Assembly (NCBI GenBank): GCA_016841605.1
Contig: JAENYV010000022.1
Span: 1 to 36,296, forward strand
Direction of reading: 5' to 3'
DNA length: 36,296 nucleotides
Source: Dethiobacter alkaliphilus
Lineage (GTDB): Bacteria; Bacillota; Dethiobacteria; DTU022; UBA8154
Shown: in pieces, positions 3,117 to 13,486 of the stretch
How the letters are laid out: every line of letters begins with the position of its first letter
Numbering within the stretch: the first letter of the stretch is position 1
Translations under genes and position numbers: made by a program
The notes under the pieces: model-generated
What the model was told of the DNA's origin: nothing
What the model saw: the letters and a program-made list of their open reading frames with translations, nothing else
Database searches by the model: none

Positions 3117-3968
3117 TTAGTCATTAATAGTGCCTTTTCCGTCAAAATAAACCAGGTCGCCATCATCATAATGCCAAATTGCCTGAAAAGCAGTCGGCTT
3201 TTTAATACTGTCTGTTTCCTCATATTCCCCGAAAACTGCCGACCATTTTACATTTTCACTTCTACCGTCCGCTGAAACGGCCGCTCTGTCATAGGTTGTA
3301 AAGGATAACATTTCACCTTGCTCATTAAATGTAAAGATACCGCTCGCGGAAATATCGTAATAGGATATAGTAGCTTTAGCATGTACATTATCGATTTCTT
3401 GCCAAATAACATAATCCTGTAAGGCTACATTGGGAATAAGAAGGCATTCTGATAAACAAGTCACTAGGCTTGCTTTATCCATAACTTCACCGCTCTGATT
3501 AAACAAGGTGAAAAGCTTTGCTATTACGCCTTTCATTGAGGCATTACCCTCAATATATGTATCTAGTCCTTCAAAGGGTATCCCATACATTGAGCTGTCA
3601 ATATACGCAATTCTGATTGGTTTCTCCACATAATTGTATTGTGTATAATCAATCTTCATTGTGGATTTATCCTTTCCGAATAAAAAATCAACATCTCGGT
3701 ACTCAACTTTAATAGAGGACATCTTAGAAGAGCCGATGTAGCCGCAATATCGGAAATATTTCTGAACAGGTAATGGCAAATCGGCAATATCTTCTTCGCT
3801 AAATTCCCCGCTCTCGCCAGCCGTTTTGGTTAATAAGCCGCCTGTTATTCCCGTAAATTCCGCTTTTACTTTCGAATACGGCACATTGAAAAATACTGTA
3901 ACAAATCCTAAGATACTAAACAGAACCCCGATAAATACATATATTTTCTTTTTACTTCTTTTTTTCAT
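3117..3968 (-). CDS. DUF6544-like membrane-anchored protein
   Basis: About 283 residues, with a lysine-rich start (MKKRSKKKI) and one hydrophobic segment at about 8-27, so probably a membrane-anchored extracytoplasmic protein. The body resembles DUF6544-type proteins as I remember them: a YFRYCGYIG segment, then beta-rich sequence with SMYGIPFEG. Function is unknown. I chose the ATG at 3968 over the one 18 bases upstream because GGGGGA sits at proper spacing and the ATG overlaps the stop of the preceding MFS gene as ATGA (3965-3968). That is a classic sign of translational coupling. The protein may act with the pump or the hydrolase in the same operon; this is inference from position only. 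Confidence 0.8.
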   Translation of the reverse strand: MKKRSKKKIYVFIGVLFSILGFVTVFFNVPYSKVKAEFTGITGGLLTKTAGESGEFSEEDIADLPLPVQKYFRYCGYIGSSKMSSIKVEYRDVDFLFGKDKSTMKIDYTQYNYVEKPIRIAYIDSSMYGIPFEGLDTYIEGNASMKGVIAKLFTLFNQSGEVMDKASLVTCLSECLLIPNVALQDYVIWQEIDNVHAKATISYYDISASGIFTFNEQGEMLSFTTYDRAAVSADGRSENVKWSAVFGEYEETDSIKKPTAFQAIWHYDDGDLVYFDGKGTIND

Positions 3969-5257
3969 ATCGATCCCCCATTCCATATTTCCAGATCCAA
4001 TACCTTGATTTTTTTAGCTCTCCCTATTACCAGTGCAAGTATTACAACACATAAGCCGGAAAGAATGAAAATAAAACCGATGCCCCTTCCCTGACCTGTT
4101 CCAATCAGCAAGCCAATACTATGGCTTAATGCTCCATTCGGATTAAAAAGAGGGTTAAATAAATGATCGGCTAAGAAACCGGCTGATCCAAAAGCCATGA
4201 TGTAACCCACTTGAGATATAATGGCAACCATGGACCACAATCGTCCCTGCCGTTCATTATCGGCATTCCTGCGAATAAGGACCTCCAGGCTTGTGTTCAC
4301 AAAAGGAAGTGTGCTAAAGAAAAGGAACCCAAAAACAATGATAAATATGATGTTGGAGAATACACCCATCAGAGCATAGAATAGCCCGGAAAGCGCCAGA
4401 AATATGGAGAGTATGGATACCATACTTTTTTTTAGACCCAATACCCCGATAAAAAGACTGCTTACCAGCATTCCGGATGCCGCAATGGAAAGAGCGATAC
4501 CCAGCATTTTAGAGTTGGTCAGTGTCAGTATCATAGGCCCAAACAGTGCCTGAAGCAACCCTATACAAAAGCAAACTAACGAAGTTAATAGAACTAAATA
4601 AAATATGCCTTTTTGAGAGATGATGTAGCGAAAAGACTCGGCCATATCCTGGAAGAAGTCTTCTTTCTCCTGCTTCCGGTAAGCGGTATCCGGCTTCTTA
4701 ATCATCAACACTGCAGTAATAGCCATCAGGAACGTAATGATATCAATGACTAAAACCATTCCCATATGAAAAACACTGATAAGCAACCCCGCTATAATTG
4801 GTGATATCAGGTATTGGGCCGACCCTGCCAATTGAATAAGCCCGCTTGCCTGTGAATATAACTCTTCTGGAACAAGATCAGAAACGGCAGCCTTATATGC
4901 GGGACTTTGAATGGCTGTGAATACTGAACTTATAGCTACCCCACCATATATATATTCCAATTGAAAACTTCCCCGTAACATGATAAGCAGGATGAACAAG
5001 ACACCGGCTATTGCCCCGGCATCACCGATAATCATCATTTTCTTCCGATCGAATCTGTCTGCCAGCACCCCGCCAAAAGGGAGCAAAACAAAAGAGGGAA
5101 GAAAGGCGAAAAGAATGACGAGAGAATAGCTTATCGCAGAATGGGTGTTTTGAAAAGTGTAAACGCCTAAGGAGAAAGCTGTCAGACCGCTTCCTATCGC
5201 TGAAATTAACTGCCCCGACCAGATAATCAGAAATTCACCAAGCTTTTTATCTTGCAT
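3965..5257 (-). CDS. MFS transporter, MFS_3 / macrolide-efflux-like
   Basis: A 430-residue, 12-TM major facilitator. The opening FLIIWSGQLISAIGSGLTAF and the loop GGVLADRFDRKKMM are typical of the MFS_3 branch, which includes MefA-like macrolide efflux and some siderophore exporters such as EntS. The ATG at 5257 follows AAGGTG. It lies 25 bases after the CPBP gene and overlaps the DUF6544 start by four bases, so it is mid-operon. This is the third MFS pump within the first 8.5 kb, and its branch differs from the two DHA2 pumps. The exported compound is unknown. Control by the operon's TetR repressor is likely. Confidence 0.92.
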   Translation of the reverse strand: MQDKKLGEFLIIWSGQLISAIGSGLTAFSLGVYTFQNTHSAISYSLVILFAFLPSFVLLPFGGVLADRFDRKKMMIIGDAGAIAGVLFILLIMLRGSFQLEYIYGGVAISSVFTAIQSPAYKAAVSDLVPEELYSQASGLIQLAGSAQYLISPIIAGLLISVFHMGMVLVIDIITFLMAITAVLMIKKPDTAYRKQEKEDFFQDMAESFRYIISQKGIFYLVLLTSLVCFCIGLLQALFGPMILTLTNSKMLGIALSIAASGMLVSSLFIGVLGLKKSMVSILSIFLALSGLFYALMGVFSNIIFIIVFGFLFFSTLPFVNTSLEVLIRRNADNERQGRLWSMVAIISQVGYIMAFGSAGFLADHLFNPLFNPNGALSHSIGLLIGTGQGRGIGFIFILSGLCVVILALVIGRAKKIKVLDLEIWNGGSI

Positions 5258-5282
5258 TATCTTTCACCTTCGCATTCCTAAA

Positions 5283-6131
5283 TCATTTTAATATTAAACC
5301 GGTCTTCCCTGATACAGTTTCTCCTCTTTGCAAAAAGCATTCTTTGTCCATTGCCACTATAACAGCGGCGACAACTGTCAGGACAAAAGTTTCAATACAC
5401 TTAGTCATTTGGGATACAGCAAACACCTCCTGTGACATATTAATAATAAAATGGAAGAGGATTGCCGAGATAATGCTCTTTTTGTTTTTTATACAGGCCC
5501 AACTGATAATCACACCCAGAGGAACAATGCTTACAAAAAAATTGACGGCAAACCAAATGTTTTCATGATAAATTTCATATTGATAAGAGTTCTGAACAAA
5601 AATGAGAGGAAGATGCCAGAGTGACCAGAGTGTGCCGAATATGATAGATGCTTTAAACAACGAATAGCGGCTCTGCAAACTATCAAAGGCATATCCCCTC
5701 CAACCGAGCTCTTCAAAGCATGCTGTCAGTATAAGCAGGAGCAATACCGGGATAAAACCCGATGAAAATGAGAACCCTTCTGCCAGTTGAAACTGTGAAA
5801 TCGATCCGCCCAAAGGTAAAGAAATAACAATTGACGCAAGGATAGACAGCGGCATGACGAAAAGGATAAACAGTATTATCTTGGGCTGAATAAGCCTCGG
5901 GTTGAGAAGTCGGTTGAGAAAATCCTTTTTCATATCAATGTTCTTCGATGTCATAACCATTAGAGAGGAAAAAAGAAAGGGGGCCATGAGTCCAAGCAGC
6001 ATAAATAGCATGTAATTCCCGCTGTTATTATCCTGATAACTAAGATATGCGCCAATAAACCAAAGAATATAGGTCACCAAAAAAGTTGTTGTAAAATACA
6101 GCTTGGGTTTGTATTCATAGGTTGTAATCAT
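5283..6131 (-). CDS. CPBP (CAAX/Abi) family intramembrane metalloprotease
   Basis: A 282-residue membrane protein with about eight hydrophobic segments. The CPBP/CAAX protease motifs are all present: EELGWRG at about 140-146 (Glu140, Glu141, Arg145), a histidine in LWSLWHLP (His173), and FHFIIN (His227, Asn231). Family members cleave prenylated or other membrane proteins. In bacteria many serve in bacteriocin self-immunity or in processing membrane proteins, but the substrate here is unknown. The start at 6131 has AAGGAG about eight bases upstream. It sits between the TetR gene (26 bases away) and an MFS pump, so it belongs to the TetR-controlled operon. Confidence 0.9.
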   Translation of the reverse strand: MITTYEYKPKLYFTTTFLVTYILWFIGAYLSYQDNNSGNYMLFMLLGLMAPFLFSSLMVMTSKNIDMKKDFLNRLLNPRLIQPKIILFILFVMPLSILASIVISLPLGGSISQFQLAEGFSFSSGFIPVLLLLILTACFEELGWRGYAFDSLQSRYSLFKASIIFGTLWSLWHLPLIFVQNSYQYEIYHENIWFAVNFFVSIVPLGVIISWACIKNKKSIISAILFHFIINMSQEVFAVSQMTKCIETFVLTVVAAVIVAMDKECFLQRGETVSGKTGLILK

Positions 6132-6157
6132 TTTTTTCTCTCCTTAACTATAAAGTT

Positions 6158-6769
6158 TTATAAAAATGAGAAGGATCCGGGAGCAGCTCCTAAAGACCTT
6201 TCAATAATGGTCTGCATAGATTGCATCCGTTTTGCCTGCTCTTCTTTGTTCCATTTAAAGAGGCCGGATTCCAGAAGAAATTGAGAACCAGCTAAAAGGA
6301 ATTGTAAAGTTTCCAGAGGATATTCAACATTAAACACAGATTCCTTTTTACCTTGCTCGATAACTTCAGCAAATACAGGTGCAATCTTTAACACGATTTC
6401 AATGTTAATCCGCTCGTGGAGCTCTCTGTTTTCAGGCCGATGAAGATTTTCCATCAAATTGTTTTCTTTTTCCGAAAACTGATTATCTCCCCTAAGCATC
6501 AGCCGCATTTTATCTATTGCCCTGATCTTTGAGTCATCGGCAATTTTTTTGTACTCTTCGTAACGCTGATCAACTATTTCGTGAACAAGTGCATCTAAGA
6601 TATTTTCCTTGGATTTAAAATAATAATAAAATGTCCCTTTCGCTACTCCTACCCGCTGAATGATCGCTTCCACAGTCGTATTGACATACCCATGATTTTT
6701 AAAAAGTTCTTCTGCAGCCGTTAATATCTCTTTTCGCCGTACTTCCGGATCTTTGACAGTTCTTTTCAT
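6158..6769 (-). CDS. TetR/AcrR-family transcriptional regulator
   Basis: 203 residues. The N-terminal helix-turn-helix spans about residues 12-58 (ILTAAEELF, then VGVAKGTFYYYFKSKENIL), the hallmark of TetR/AcrR repressors. The ligand-binding C-terminal part is not assignable to a known inducer. The ATG at 6769 follows AGGAGGGTGCC. It is the first gene of a minus-strand operon (TetR, CPBP, MFS, DUF6544, hydrolase). The palindromic control region immediately upstream is almost certainly its own operator, so autorepression and induction by a pump substrate are expected. Confidence 0.95.
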   Translation of the reverse strand: MKRTVKDPEVRRKEILTAAEELFKNHGYVNTTVEAIIQRVGVAKGTFYYYFKSKENILDALVHEIVDQRYEEYKKIADDSKIRAIDKMRLMLRGDNQFSEKENNLMENLHRPENRELHERINIEIVLKIAPVFAEVIEQGKKESVFNVEYPLETLQFLLAGSQFLLESGLFKWNKEEQAKRMQSMQTIIERSLGAAPGSFSFL

Positions 6770-6781
6770 GGCACCCTCCTA

Positions 6782-6810
6782 TTGACTGACGGTCAGTTTA
6801 TGTGTATATA
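6782..6810 (+). promoter_or_regulatory. Divergent rightward promoter
   Basis: On the plus strand TTGACT (6782-6787) and TATATA (6805-6810) have a 17-base spacer, a mirror image of the leftward promoter. It would transcribe towards the MFS gene at 7107, leaving a leader of about 290 bases. Activity is not proven, because that gene also has its own closer promoter candidate. Confidence 0.55.
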
Positions 6811-6836
6811 TTACCACATGACTGACCATCAGTCAA
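6808..6836 (-). promoter_or_regulatory. Promoter of the TetR operon
   Basis: On the minus strand TTGACT (6831-6836) is separated by 17 bases from TAATAT (6808-6813), a good vegetative promoter. The -35 lies inside the right operator and the left operator covers the region just after the start point, so bound TetR would block it. Confidence 0.75.
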
Positions 6837-6847
6837 TAGGAGGGTGC

Positions 6848-7106
6848 TATTATTTTAAAAATTTTTCATTAAACTTTATAAAAAAGTCCCCATATTCTAT
6901 GGAGTACTCACTTAAATTGATGTGGATTATTCAAAAAGAGGATAAACGGAGACATTGAAGAGGATGATATGGGTCTTATTGACTCATCAAAAAAGCAATT
7001 TCCTACACCAAATTGATCATTTTATTCATAATTGCCTGATCTTTTTAAATATGAAAGTGGTATACTGTTACTTAGATAGGAATATGAACAGAAAGGATAA
7101 CAATTT
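6848..7106 (+). promoter_or_regulatory. AT-rich leader with extended -10 promoter before the second DHA2 pump
   Basis: No gene is seen here. An extended -10 element, TGG followed by TATACT, lies at 7058-7066, about 40 bases before the MFS start, without a good -35. The next gene's ribosome binding site is AGAAAGG at about 7090. An orphan ribosome-binding-like sequence at the left edge belongs to the palindrome. Confidence 0.45.
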
Positions 7107-8539: not shown

Positions 8540-11500
8540 CTATTCCACTTTTATAACATTTTTTCTTCTATAAACAAAATATATTGCTATTACAAAAAGA
8601 ATAAGAGCCATTCCCAATAAAGGATTCATAATCATATAGACTGTGGCAATAACAGGAATTAATGCCATTCTTACGACGCCTTTTAATGTTTCACTTCCGG
8701 CGATAAACTGTGCCATTGGCGGTGAATTCTTGTAATAAATGTTTACAAAAACTTTACCTAATCCATTTGTAAGAAGATAATTGTCTCTAAACTGTCTTAA
8801 TAAAACTACTGCCGGAGTAAATTTAGTGCCGAAGGCTGCAGTGGCAATAAAGCATTCATCAGGCTCGCCTGAATTAATCGTCCACTTCGCATACAGAGTA
8901 ATATCGCCGATTATTGCGGTGTCAAAATTAAAGGCAGTGACAAGACCTGCATCCGCATACCAGCCGGCAAAGGTATAACCATCCTTAACGGGGATCGGTG
9001 GTTCAGTTGCCTTAGTGTTGTAATTCACCACTTGGCTATCAACCGGGCTGCCTCCGTCTACGGCAAAGCTTACGGTATACTGGTTGTCCGCGGAAAGACT
9101 GCCGTATACTTTCAGTTCTCCAACATATGCTCTCTGCTGGGTTTGGCTAAGGTTCTCATCATCTATTACCAGTCTTACATAATGCACCTTTTCGGCGGCA
9201 AAAGAATGGGACACTTTCCCTGTCTTTTCCATTGGCAACATACTGGCTACCGTGTTCCATGCCTCACCGTCAGTTGAAACATCTATTCTATGACCATAAC
9301 CATTCTCATTATAAAGGTGAATCAGATCAACACCCGTAAGATCATAAAAGCCATCCAGATCTATCTCCACCCATACCTCAGCTGTATAGTAACCACTTAC
9401 CCAGGGATTGTTAACATCACCATCTACCAGGTTGCTCGGGAAATTACCAAAATTAGTCTCATTAGTTGTAACTGCTTTACCGACAGCAATACTGGGTGCA
9501 TCTGCGGTAGTTACGGTCAAGAGATTAGACAATTCCGAATAATTTTGGGCATTATCAATTACCCTCAGGGCAAAATAATAAGTTGTGCTGCGATTAAGCC
9601 CTTCTATCATCACGGTCTGTGTACTTCCTGCCGGCAAGGGATGCGGTAATTCCACGGTTTTGGTATGAGTCTCCCATTCATTTACGGTAAAAGGCTGAGT
9701 AGAATAGGCCAGCTCATAAGCTGAAGCGATTCCCTCACTCCCATCATCACCAGTAGCTGTCCATCTTAATTCCGCAAATATGTCCGTAACGTTTGTCGCA
9801 GTCAAGTCAGTCACCTTTCCGGGTATTATTCTATCAATTTCTCCAGTCATAACACCTGTAATATTGGAAAGCAAAGACCAATTATCAGCTTCATCACCGG
9901 TTTTCATGGCAAAATAATATTGGGTATGGGAAAGAAGGGTTTTTACCGTATACTTTTGTGTTGCACCCGGAAAGGCAGGAAGAGGCCCTCCCTCTACCTT
10001 CTCAGCATCATCCCAACTGCCGTCATCAATGGGAGAAAGCGAATACCTTATATCATAAGCAGTTGCCTGTCCCGTCATGCCATTATCTCCCGGCACTGTC
10101 CAACTGAGAGTAACCCCTTTGATATCATTGCCATCCACCGATAGATCAGTAATGGCAGCAGGAGCTGTTGTGTCGGCATCTTCCAATATGAAGTACAGCA
10201 CATTGGAGATAGCAGATTCGTTACCCGCATCATCATAGGCATTCATGGCCAGATAATAGGGCTGGTATTTCTCCAGTCCCGTGACAGTATACTGTTGCTT
10301 GTTTTTAGGTTCCCGGCGCGTTTTCCTGGCAGGCAGCGGTATTTCTGTGAGCGACTGCGCCGCCTCAAAAACTGTTGGTGTCATCGGTTCTGCTGAGATT
10401 TTCATATTATAACCCAGCGCCGTACCTGTGTCTGTGTCATCACCCGGTATGCTCCATTCAAGCGTAACGGTAGTATCTGTTTTTTCAACTACGGCAAGAT
10501 CCGTAATCACAGAGGGTGATACAATGTCCCCCGTCCCCATATTCAATTGCTTAACGTTGGAAATAGGGCCGATATTATCATTACTGTCAACGCTTTTGAC
10601 CGCAAAGTAAAGGGTAGTGTTATCCGCCAGCCCCTCTATTATCAATTCCTTGCTCCCCGCACCGGTCAGGTCATTGGCGACCGATTCCCCAGCCCACCAA
10701 TTGCAATAACCATCGGCCGCCGTATGCTCGGCAACGATAGGCCTGTCTGACCATCTTACCCAATACCAGGCTGCCTCTTCATCTCCGCTCCAGGATAATT
10801 TCACCCGGCCCTCGCCCAGGCTCTGGGCATGCAAATCATTTACTGCTGCCGGCAATGTTTTATCCTGTTTTTCCATGCCGGTAACATAACAACTCCATCT
10901 CCCGCCATAATCACCCCGCCAATTCTTCATATCGAGCGGTAAAGCAAAGTTCTCTTCTTCAACTTCAAGTTTGCCGTCCATATAATCCAGCATGTGCTCC
11001 AGCACTTTCTGGTCTCCGCTGTGCCAGTAATACCAGCTGACCGGATCAACCAGCAAAAATCCTGTGGGGTCGGAATCCACTATCCCCCCATATCGATCGG
11101 TCATGGTATCGGTATCAAGAAAATACTCGTAAGTACCGTAGTAGTAATTCCATTCAATAAAGCCCTGTAAAACACTAAAACCATCCAGATAGGCCTGTTG
11201 GTCATAATCCTTGACCAGGTCTAAATAACCAATTACCCCCCGGGCGAGATAAGCGGTCTGGAACGGGGAATCCAAGAAAAAGCTGGTCCCCTGATTTCCG
11301 TATTTGGTCTGGTTTTTTTTAAGGTCGTTAACAAATATTTTTGCTGCTTCCAAGTAACTGGGATCACCGACCACCCGATAGGCCTGCAAAAGGGTATTCA
11401 GGACATGTCCCTCTGCCCGGGTGGCATGGGTTGTTCCTTCATCGGAAATATCGTATGGACAATTATTACTCCCCATCACATGGGCTTTCATAAATTCTCC

Positions 11501-13486
11501 TATGAATTTATACCAATCATAGATACGTCTATCTCCGGAAAGATTATAAAACTCCTCTGTCTCGTACATCCATAGGTGTTCGAAATCCCGGGCGGTGTAC
11601 CCGGACCAGTTAGTACCCTCCAGGTACGGAGCAAATTCTTTGGGATAACCAAAGTTATGCTTCCAATATCTCCAACTCATAGCCCCATACCAATCATTAT
11701 CTAAAGGCGTATTGCCTGCTATTTTATCCTGTTCGTAGTTATAGCCTGCCAGATGCTGTGGCCGGGCATTCAAATCTCCAAATACCCTGGCCTCACTCTG
11801 ATAATAGTCAGCCGGGTTTTCCGAAGCGATAAACCAGGCACTGCTATGGGGCCAGCCACCAGTAGTATTACTCGCTCTTCTGCCTACATCAGCCATATAA
11901 TTGTCATAACCGAAATGATAAAAATGACTGTTAATATTTGCTGCTTCAGAATAGTATTCAATATCGGAAGCTGAAGAAGTCACCTTCTCCGCAAGGGGAA
12001 TCATCCCGCTCATATCAAGCGTAACCGCAGTTTGCTTATACCATTCCATCGGCACCACTGCCAGCGGTTTCTTTTGAAAAAGTTTATTCAGCCGTTCTAA
12101 ATCCTCAGATGGACTGTCACCGTGAGCATAAAGCCAATAGGTCTTGGTGACATGCTGCATGTCATCAAGCCAGTAAAGTTCAGTATTTGTTTCTATATAT
12201 CGCCCGTTCGAGGAATCAAAATACATATCCTTGCCCCACCGGGGAAACATATGCATAACCAGCCTATGCTCCGAATCTGCTTGCAGGGCATTAGGCCAGG
12301 TTTGCCAAAAATCCTTGACAGATACCATCAAACCCCCTGCATTATCCGACATATCGAGCCATCCTGAACCTCTTGTCCCTTCTTTCTCATAGGTGCCGTC
12401 TTCCTCCTCCAAGTGGTAAAGGTTATGACTCTTTTGGCTTATGTAAACTCCGGTTCCGACCTCGCCATCATATATGTCATATACATCATCTGCTTTGTCA
12501 AACAAATTGCCCTCTCTATCCTCACATGTACCTATCCGCACTCTGTCCATGCTTTCAGGTAATTTCAAACCCATGGTAAATTCCTTTAAATATAGGGGCC
12601 ACGACTGGAGGACCGTTTTATCAGAATTTTCAAGGGTAAAATCTATTCTTAAAAGGCTTTTTCCTTCATAAGCATAAAGCCTGACACAATAACCGTGTTC
12701 ATGTGTATAATCACCTTCCTCAAGCGGTTCACCGACATTATCCAATCCAGGCACAAGATCCTCATATCTTCCGGCCGGTCGGAAACGGGCGGGTAGTTCA
12801 ACCCTGATGACTGTTCTGACCGGGCCCCGCTCTTCTATCGTTACTTCCGGTGGTGACATCTGGGCTTCTATCTGCAGATCGGAGAACCTGTCCTTCAACA
12901 CCCCTCCATTGAGGGGATCATCTAAAACGATTTCCTTACCCTCATAGCGCAATGACTCTATCAAAGAGAATGATTTTTTATTAACCACAAACTCTATTGC
13001 TCCCGTATTAACTTCAATGCGCTCACTATCTTCAGATACGCTCATGACTCCTGGAAGATTACCTGTCCCGTCATCTTTTAAAAAAAACTGCTCTTCGTCA
13101 TTGGCCTGTGCATAGGTAAAAAAATTTACCGTCATATGTCTAATACTATTATCTTTTGAATAATGCCTGTTTAAAACATCAAATTGTGCTCTGACATTAT
13201 TGCCGTTGGAATCAGTAAGGCGAAAACTATCAAGATTTTGATAGTTTCCATATGGCAGCGGGACGACTGCTGTAACAGGAAAACCTCTGGCATCAACTCC
13301 AGCATTTTCTTTTACCGTTATTGGTACATTTAGTCCTCCGACTTGATTAGCATATGCCTTTTCGTAAGTGAACCCGGCAGTTAAGAAAAGCATCATAGAA
13401 ATTACACACAACAACTTTTTAAACATAAACAAGAACTCTTTCATATTCCAGGGCTGTTTTTGAAATGCAGTCTTATAACTCAACAC
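8540..13486 (-). CDS. Large secreted multidomain protein: PcRGLX/YetA-like lyase front, FN3, F5/8C, InlB-repeat, CFI-box C-terminus
   Basis: 1648 residues, a cell-surface protein. A hydrophobic signal sequence ends near AYA (about residue 46). Residues about 50-870 resemble exo-rhamnogalacturonan lyase/YetA-like proteins (PL26 type): a beta-barrel front (GFPVTAVVPLPYG) and a helical toroid with many Trp, Tyr and His residues. Four FN3-like domains follow at about 877-980, 985-1100, 1105-1212 and 1218-1325, three of them containing a PGDD/PGDN/TGDD loop. Then come a discoidin (F5/8 type C) domain at about 1328-1462 and an InlB-type repeat at about 1467-1534 (GYTFAGWYAD, LYAKW). Last is a CFI-box C-terminus starting CFIATAAFG near 1543, with two hydrophobic stretches. 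The GTG at 13486 is favoured because AAGGAG lies five bases upstream. The ATGs at 13444 and 13426 would give a shorter signal peptide but have weak ribosome sites. The lyase assignment is from remembered family features, so the substrate is uncertain. Confidence 0.85.
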   Translation of the reverse strand: MLSYKTAFQKQPWNMKEFLFMFKKLLCVISMMLFLTAGFTYEKAYANQVGGLNVPITVKENAGVDARGFPVTAVVPLPYGNYQNLDSFRLTDSNGNNVRAQFDVLNRHYSKDNSIRHMTVNFFTYAQANDEEQFFLKDDGTGNLPGVMSVSEDSERIEVNTGAIEFVVNKKSFSLIESLRYEGKEIVLDDPLNGGVLKDRFSDLQIEAQMSPPEVTIEERGPVRTVIRVELPARFRPAGRYEDLVPGLDNVGEPLEEGDYTHEHGYCVRLYAYEGKSLLRIDFTLENSDKTVLQSWPLYLKEFTMGLKLPESMDRVRIGTCEDREGNLFDKADDVYDIYDGEVGTGVYISQKSHNLYHLEEEDGTYEKEGTRGSGWLDMSDNAGGLMVSVKDFWQTWPNALQADSEHRLVMHMFPRWGKDMYFDSSNGRYIETNTELYWLDDMQHVTKTYWLYAHGDSPSEDLERLNKLFQKKPLAVVPMEWYKQTAVTLDMSGMIPLAEKVTSSASDIEYYSEAANINSHFYHFGYDNYMADVGRRASNTTGGWPHSSAWFIASENPADYYQSEARVFGDLNARPQHLAGYNYEQDKIAGNTPLDNDWYGAMSWRYWKHNFGYPKEFAPYLEGTNWSGYTARDFEHLWMYETEEFYNLSGDRRIYDWYKFIGEFMKAHVMGSNNCPYDISDEGTTHATRAEGHVLNTLLQAYRVVGDPSYLEAAKIFVNDLKKNQTKYGNQGTSFFLDSPFQTAYLARGVIGYLDLVKDYDQQAYLDGFSVLQGFIEWNYYYGTYEYFLDTDTMTDRYGGIVDSDPTGFLLVDPVSWYYWHSGDQKVLEHMLDYMDGKLEVEEENFALPLDMKNWRGDYGGRWSCYVTGMEKQDKTLPAAVNDLHAQSLGEGRVKLSWSGDEEAAWYWVRWSDRPIVAEHTAADGYCNWWAGESVANDLTGAGSKELIIEGLADNTTLYFAVKSVDSNDNIGPISNVKQLNMGTGDIVSPSVITDLAVVEKTDTTVTLEWSIPGDDTDTGTALGYNMKISAEPMTPTVFEAAQSLTEIPLPARKTRREPKNKQQYTVTGLEKYQPYYLAMNAYDDAGNESAISNVLYFILEDADTTAPAAITDLSVDGNDIKGVTLSWTVPGDNGMTGQATAYDIRYSLSPIDDGSWDDAEKVEGGPLPAFPGATQKYTVKTLLSHTQYYFAMKTGDEADNWSLLSNITGVMTGEIDRIIPGKVTDLTATNVTDIFAELRWTATGDDGSEGIASAYELAYSTQPFTVNEWETHTKTVELPHPLPAGSTQTVMIEGLNRSTTYYFALRVIDNAQNYSELSNLLTVTTADAPSIAVGKAVTTNETNFGNFPSNLVDGDVNNPWVSGYYTAEVWVEIDLDGFYDLTGVDLIHLYNENGYGHRIDVSTDGEAWNTVASMLPMEKTGKVSHSFAAEKVHYVRLVIDDENLSQTQQRAYVGELKVYGSLSADNQYTVSFAVDGGSPVDSQVVNYNTKATEPPIPVKDGYTFAGWYADAGLVTAFNFDTAIIGDITLYAKWTINSGEPDECFIATAAFGTKFTPAVVLLRQFRDNYLLTNGLGKVFVNIYYKNSPPMAQFIAGSETLKGVVRMALIPVIATVYMIMNPLLGMALILFVIAIYFVYRRKNVIKVE

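Follow-up and report, generated by a model that had tools for sequence, protein, structure and literature searches.

The window, by which we mean the whole stretch of 36,296 nucleotides analyzed here, carries a tetR gene followed on the same strand by genes for a CPBP intramembrane protease and an MFS transporter (Table 1). The TetR protein matches both of its Pfam domains above the gathering cut-offs and is thus assigned to the TetR/AcrR family. Its closest solved relative is 3b81 (E 1.7e-32, over nearly the full length) and its orthologues are up to 87% identical, this highest value being found at the sister locus, L023. Our comparisons considered the 18 loci with the closest relatives (L023-L039 and L062), of which L025 and L026 have identical TetR rows. 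Nearly all of these keep tetR together with one or both of its module neighbours: the CPBP gene adjoins tetR in L023, L024, L037 and others, and the MFS transporter follows tetR in L023, L026-L030 and L032-L039. On the other side of tetR, the window has a divergent gene for a DHA2/EmrB-like MFS transporter, which is not conserved at that place in relatives. There, L023 has an asparagine-synthase-like gene (as read from its sequence), the Paenibacillus loci have an ORF with no match in Pfam, followed by a fatty acid desaturase gene, and the other loci have unrelated genes. The Paenibacillus ORF (L027:3329-3907, minus strand; 192 aa at that locus) is a conserved frame of 160-190 aa divergent from tetR in five genomes.

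Table 1 Features of the tetR locus, ordered by position in the window. Operators, promoters and the terminator-like site are predictions.
Feature	Position	Strand	Evidence or remarks
MFS transporter (MFS_1; H+-antiporter/Mef-like, below family cut-offs)	3965..5257	-	Pfam PF07690 2e-31
CPBP intramembrane protease, MmRce1 type	5283..6131	-	NCBIfam NF041656, 461 bits (cut-off 425)
tetR, TetR/AcrR-family repressor, 203 aa (TetR_N + TetR_C_39)	6158..6769	-	Pfam PF00440 5.7e-18, PF21303 5.7e-20
tetR Shine-Dalgarno AGGAGGG	6774..6780	-	Spacing to ATG at 6769 (start codon CAT 6767-6769)
Rightward promoter-like TTGACT-17-TATATA	6782..6810	+	TTGACT 6782-6787, TATATA 6805-6810
Proximal TetR operator	6783..6799		AAACTGACCGTCAGTCA on the - strand; at the inferred tetR transcription start
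tetR promoter TTGACT-17-TAATAT	6808..6836	-	Promoter scan; similar -35/-10 in orthologues
Distal TetR operator	6819..6835		TGACTGATGGTCAGTCA on the - strand; overlaps -35/spacer of the tetR promoter
Mirrored outer segment GGAGGGTGC ("orphan RBS")	6839..6847	+	GCACCCTCC on the - strand, anti-Shine-Dalgarno
Leftward terminator-like stem + T run	6888..6904	-	Upstream of the distal arm; consensus match only

The closest relatives of the module (3965-6769) were found in a Desulfoscipio-labelled MAG, in other Clostridia and in Paenibacillaceae. Within the class and order of the window, the best TetR matches are only about 36% identical, and in the set of 98 genomes searched from this class, none of the others has the pattern of distal operator and promoter described below. 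The distribution of the module points to horizontal transfer, or to wrong binning of the contig. A phage origin was rejected, as no DNA match was found in phages and no relative in viral contigs, as was a plasmid origin, since plasmid TetR matches are distant only (at most 40.5% identity). The genome that contains the window measures 4.07 Mb, as compared with 2.1-2.4 Mb for its two genus mates. Elsewhere in the window, at 8540-13486 on the minus strand, lies a gene for a secreted protein of 1648 aa with PcRGLX-like, fn3, F5/8 type C and Listeria-Bacteroides repeat domains, the end of which, with an ECFIATAAFG motif and a membrane segment, looks like a surface-sorting tail.

The control region of tetR is a quasi-palindrome (6768-6850), with 30-nt arms at 6768-6797 and 6821-6850 that match at 28 of 30 positions (93% complementary) around a 23-nt spacer. 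Direct reading of the shorter arms given in the preliminary description (6771-6797 and 6821-6847) confirmed 26 matches in 27, with the single mismatch near the operator centre. As single-stranded DNA, the quasi-palindrome forms a hairpin with a z of -12.4. Among inverted repeats with arms of at least 18 nt, the 36-kb window holds only this one and one 18-nt palindrome. The baseline for quasi-palindromes was taken from 400 kb of the same genome. When these and the window were scanned for arms of 27 nt that match at 25 or more positions across a spacer of up to 60 nt, the window gave this repeat once and the 400 kb gave two more, both of them copies of one GGGGACGGTTCT repeat family. The GGGGACGGTTCT inverted repeats, at L143:9030 and L145:3208, have long near-perfect arms and apparently represent a family dispersed in this genome.

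Each arm contains a 17-bp palindrome of the TGACTGA type, and it is because these two predicted operators, 36 bp apart, are inverted copies that the region is quasi-palindromic. Using a motif threshold to call operators, we found two operators 35-38 bp apart in 12 of the 18 related loci (L023, L024, L027-L030, L032-L035, L037 and L062). In these 12, the tetR -35 element (TTGACT or TAGACC/TAGACT) lies within the distal operator and the -10 element between both operators. Palindromic sites that overlap the repressor's own promoter and are conserved in its orthologues are the mark of TetR autorepression, and we infer that the inner part of the repeat is an ordinary autorepression region in which TetR would bind both operators and repress its own gene. 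The preliminary description was right in its reading of a TetR control region with two operators; its other observations here, a TTGACT-N17 promoter on each strand and a left ribosome site that serves tetR, agree with the features in Table 1. The rightward promoter-like sequence, which falls below the threshold of a stricter promoter scan, probably results from the operator being palindromic. When the window's own genome was searched for a regulon, no other convincing operator came up, as the two extra sites with 2 mismatches were at control level, and the operator string had no match in the literature searched. At the Brevibacillus locus (L034:3900-3990), three operators are present, the promoter-operator unit being repeated in tandem every 36 bp (positions -101, -65 and -29).

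Autoregulated double operators are known in the TetR family from tetO1-tetO2 of Tn10 tetR/tetA. As in systems of that type, the window has a pair of palindromic operators placed around oppositely directed promoters, a repressor gene adjoining the operators and a transporter in the regulated set. It differs from them in that tetR precedes the module genes on one strand, that the divergent DHA2-type MFS gene is not conserved along with tetR, and that the symmetry runs over the ribosome-binding site.

On the tetR-sense strand, the outer segment reads CCCTCC, an anti-Shine-Dalgarno. In the rightward direction, what comes after the mirrored AGGAGGGTGC (6838-6847) is TATTATTTTAAAAATT, which offers no ATG, GTG or TTG at a usable spacing, the GTG within it opening 4 codons only; the right copy of the ribosome site does point to no start codon, as had been claimed. 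After the right arm of the window we found no start codon, small gene or ORF, and no divergent gene that is conserved between the window, its sister and the near outgroups. The window has 12 leading mirrored bases at the DNA level as compared with 0-5 in relatives, and 14 of 16 flank positions match in mirror image as compared with 3-8 of 16. At the same place, the outgroups have mostly A/T-rich sequence, and the mirrored ribosome-site string is absent at the DNA level from every relative compared. The preliminary description counted absence of the right arm from relatives among the points that would speak against its reading; in this respect the arm is divided, as its ribosome-site half is indeed absent while its operator half is present.

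In the TetR tree, the window and L023, the alignable sister locus, are joined at 100/99, and the branch of the window is the shorter of the two. L023 shares the outer flank (AATAGC...) with the window but has AATTTTAC where the window has ACCCTCC. Within the segment, 6 of 9 columns differ between the two, as compared with 14 of 71 and 6 of 31 in the neighbouring aligned columns; the 6 changed columns, taken alone, reach only a p of 0.003 under 20% divergence. Every window base in the changed block is the complement of the window's own opposite arm, which carries the ribosome site. The unmirrored state is seen in the outgroups, with L023 being intermediate, and a search of 98 genomes of the class, 398 drawn from the phylum and up to 398 around the genome of L023 brought up no closer relative that is unmirrored.

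Quasi-palindrome template switching is a known type of mutation (PMC8604942) that is established in Escherichia coli, at the thyA hotspot and in lacZ reporters (PMC7202029), and a template switch can create a stem in a single event (PMC8794818). Two signs of such an event are present here, namely a pre-existing imperfect inverted repeat, given by the inverted operators in the outgroups, and clustered changes that all match the opposite arm. We consider it probable that the locus is a double-operator, autorepressing tetR-CPBP-MFS switch whose symmetry was extended over the ribosome-binding site by a template switch primed by the inverted operators. By comparison with the relatives, only about 9-12 outer nucleotides are new, both operators being old and conserved, and the clustering is consistent with a single event. 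During replication, the nascent strand would fold on the operator pairing and briefly copy the tetR ribosome-site side onto the distal side, turning the A/T-rich flank into GCACCCTCC. As in E. coli, an imperfect inverted repeat would have become more perfect, with one arm serving as the template for the other, although here the change is known only as a footprint between species and not as an observed mutation. As in the RNA-hairpin cases of PMC8794818, one event would have yielded a long stem with several neighbouring positions changed together; those stems belong to microRNA and rRNA, whereas the present one covers a bacterial Shine-Dalgarno.

In the proposed switch, one TetR dimer on the distal operator would cover the -35 element and the spacer, while a second dimer on the proximal operator would cover the start site, and together they would shut tetR and the downstream genes until a ligand releases them. 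The anti-Shine-Dalgarno would fold over the tetR Shine-Dalgarno only in RNA transcribed leftward across both arms, and the normal tetR mRNA, with a predicted start near 6800, would stay translatable. The calculated folds follow this division. Leftward read-through RNA with both arms folds at -58.7 kcal/mol, as compared with -35.8 with shuffled flanks, and the probability that the tetR Shine-Dalgarno is unpaired is 0.00, whereas it averages 0.51 over 400 shuffled flanks. In RNA starting near 6800, this probability is 0.41, so that the site is partly free. The corresponding stem in L023 has 29 shared pairs, 7 pairs changed on one side and 2 on both, many of them G-U; relative to shuffled flanks, its MFE fraction is 0.003 and its Shine-Dalgarno pairing fraction 0.04. 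As L023 pairs the same positions and the tree joins it to the window, the copying of the ribosome-site side probably predates the split of the two, with the stem having since decayed in L023. Alternatively, L023 may represent a chance partial match rather than a decayed copy, as G-U pairs are permissive.

A hairpin of this kind might also have been selected. According to this reading, which we regard as unlikely although it is the best of the alternatives, the fold-back blocks tetR translation from RNA entering from upstream, so that TetR would come solely from transcripts of its own repressible promoter. The burial of the Shine-Dalgarno in read-through RNA and its partial exposure in the gene's own transcript fit this reading, as does the retention of pairing in L023, where 9 pairs have changed and the majority of these are G-U on the tetR-sense strand. 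Shine-Dalgarno pairing is also somewhat better than in shuffles in Paenibacillus and L035 (fractions 0.08-0.19). Against it, the outgroups L024, L025, L028 and L037 lack the stem and fold no better than shuffled flanks, and the full stem occurs in two genomes only. The terminator-like site at 6904-6888, just upstream, would moreover limit the supply of leftward read-through RNA, on which any role of the hairpin depends. As much Shine-Dalgarno pairing is kept in 16% of neutral-drift simulations from a window-like ancestor, so that the pairing in L023, though significant against shuffled flanks, is not significant against drift, and drift alone can explain the persistence of the hairpin. The preliminary description had placed a selected hairpin in the rightward leader. 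This version is not supported, since a rightward transcript starting between the arms has the right arm only, with a 7-bp operator hairpin, and the long hairpin needs read-through of both arms.

Fold-back inhibition is known from IS10, where it limits translation of transposase under outside transcription. As there, read-through RNA would hide the Shine-Dalgarno by means of an inverted repeat and promoter-proximal RNA would not; unlike there, no mobile element is present, and both read-through and selection are hypothetical. That a template switch turned the operator pair into a translational lock that discriminates between promoters, so that the operator symmetry doubles as an RNA safety lock in this clade, with the short own mRNA translated and the Shine-Dalgarno hidden in read-through RNA, we put forward as a speculation, somewhat less likely still than selection on the hairpin as such.

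The remaining explanations fare worse. A recent inverted duplication that copied operator and ribosome site together, as the preliminary description proposed, would account for arms that resemble one copied 30-nt block. We reject it because the outgroups already have both operators: the distal operator with the promoter -35 inside it is older than the lineage of the window, and the operator centres still differ. This leaves the proposal very improbable. Equally hard to credit is the suggestion that the right ribosome site once served a rightward gene that was then lost. A rightward promoter-like sequence with the right geometry and an RBS-like string at a plausible distance speak for it, but the start codon and ORF that a divergent gene with its own ribosome site should have after the right arm are missing, no homologous divergent gene is common to the window, the sister and the near outgroups, the divergent Paenibacillus ORF has no counterpart among the divergent ORFs of the window, and no relative has the RBS string at the DNA level. 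Chance symmetry beyond the operators, least probable of all, could supply the three mirrored flank bases (ATA), a common operator extension, but the nine further bases GGAGGGTGC have a probability of 3.5e-7 of arising at this exact place under the intergenic composition, and 0 of 400 shuffled flanks fold as well.

Our verdict from the sequence comparisons is that the locus is an ordinary double-operator TetR switch that carries the footprint of a local extension of symmetry, and that the "orphan RBS" is most likely a by-product rather than a translation signal or the trace of a lost gene. An RBS-like string within an inverted repeat between genes is not necessarily the trace of a lost gene, and this should be considered when such sites are interpreted. 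The locus would serve as a clear case from nature in which a pair of inverted operators gave rise to additional symmetry, and with it to an anti-Shine-Dalgarno hairpin, with no need for selection. Should the hairpin prove functional, the origin of an element of translational control would be linked to a single mutation mechanism.
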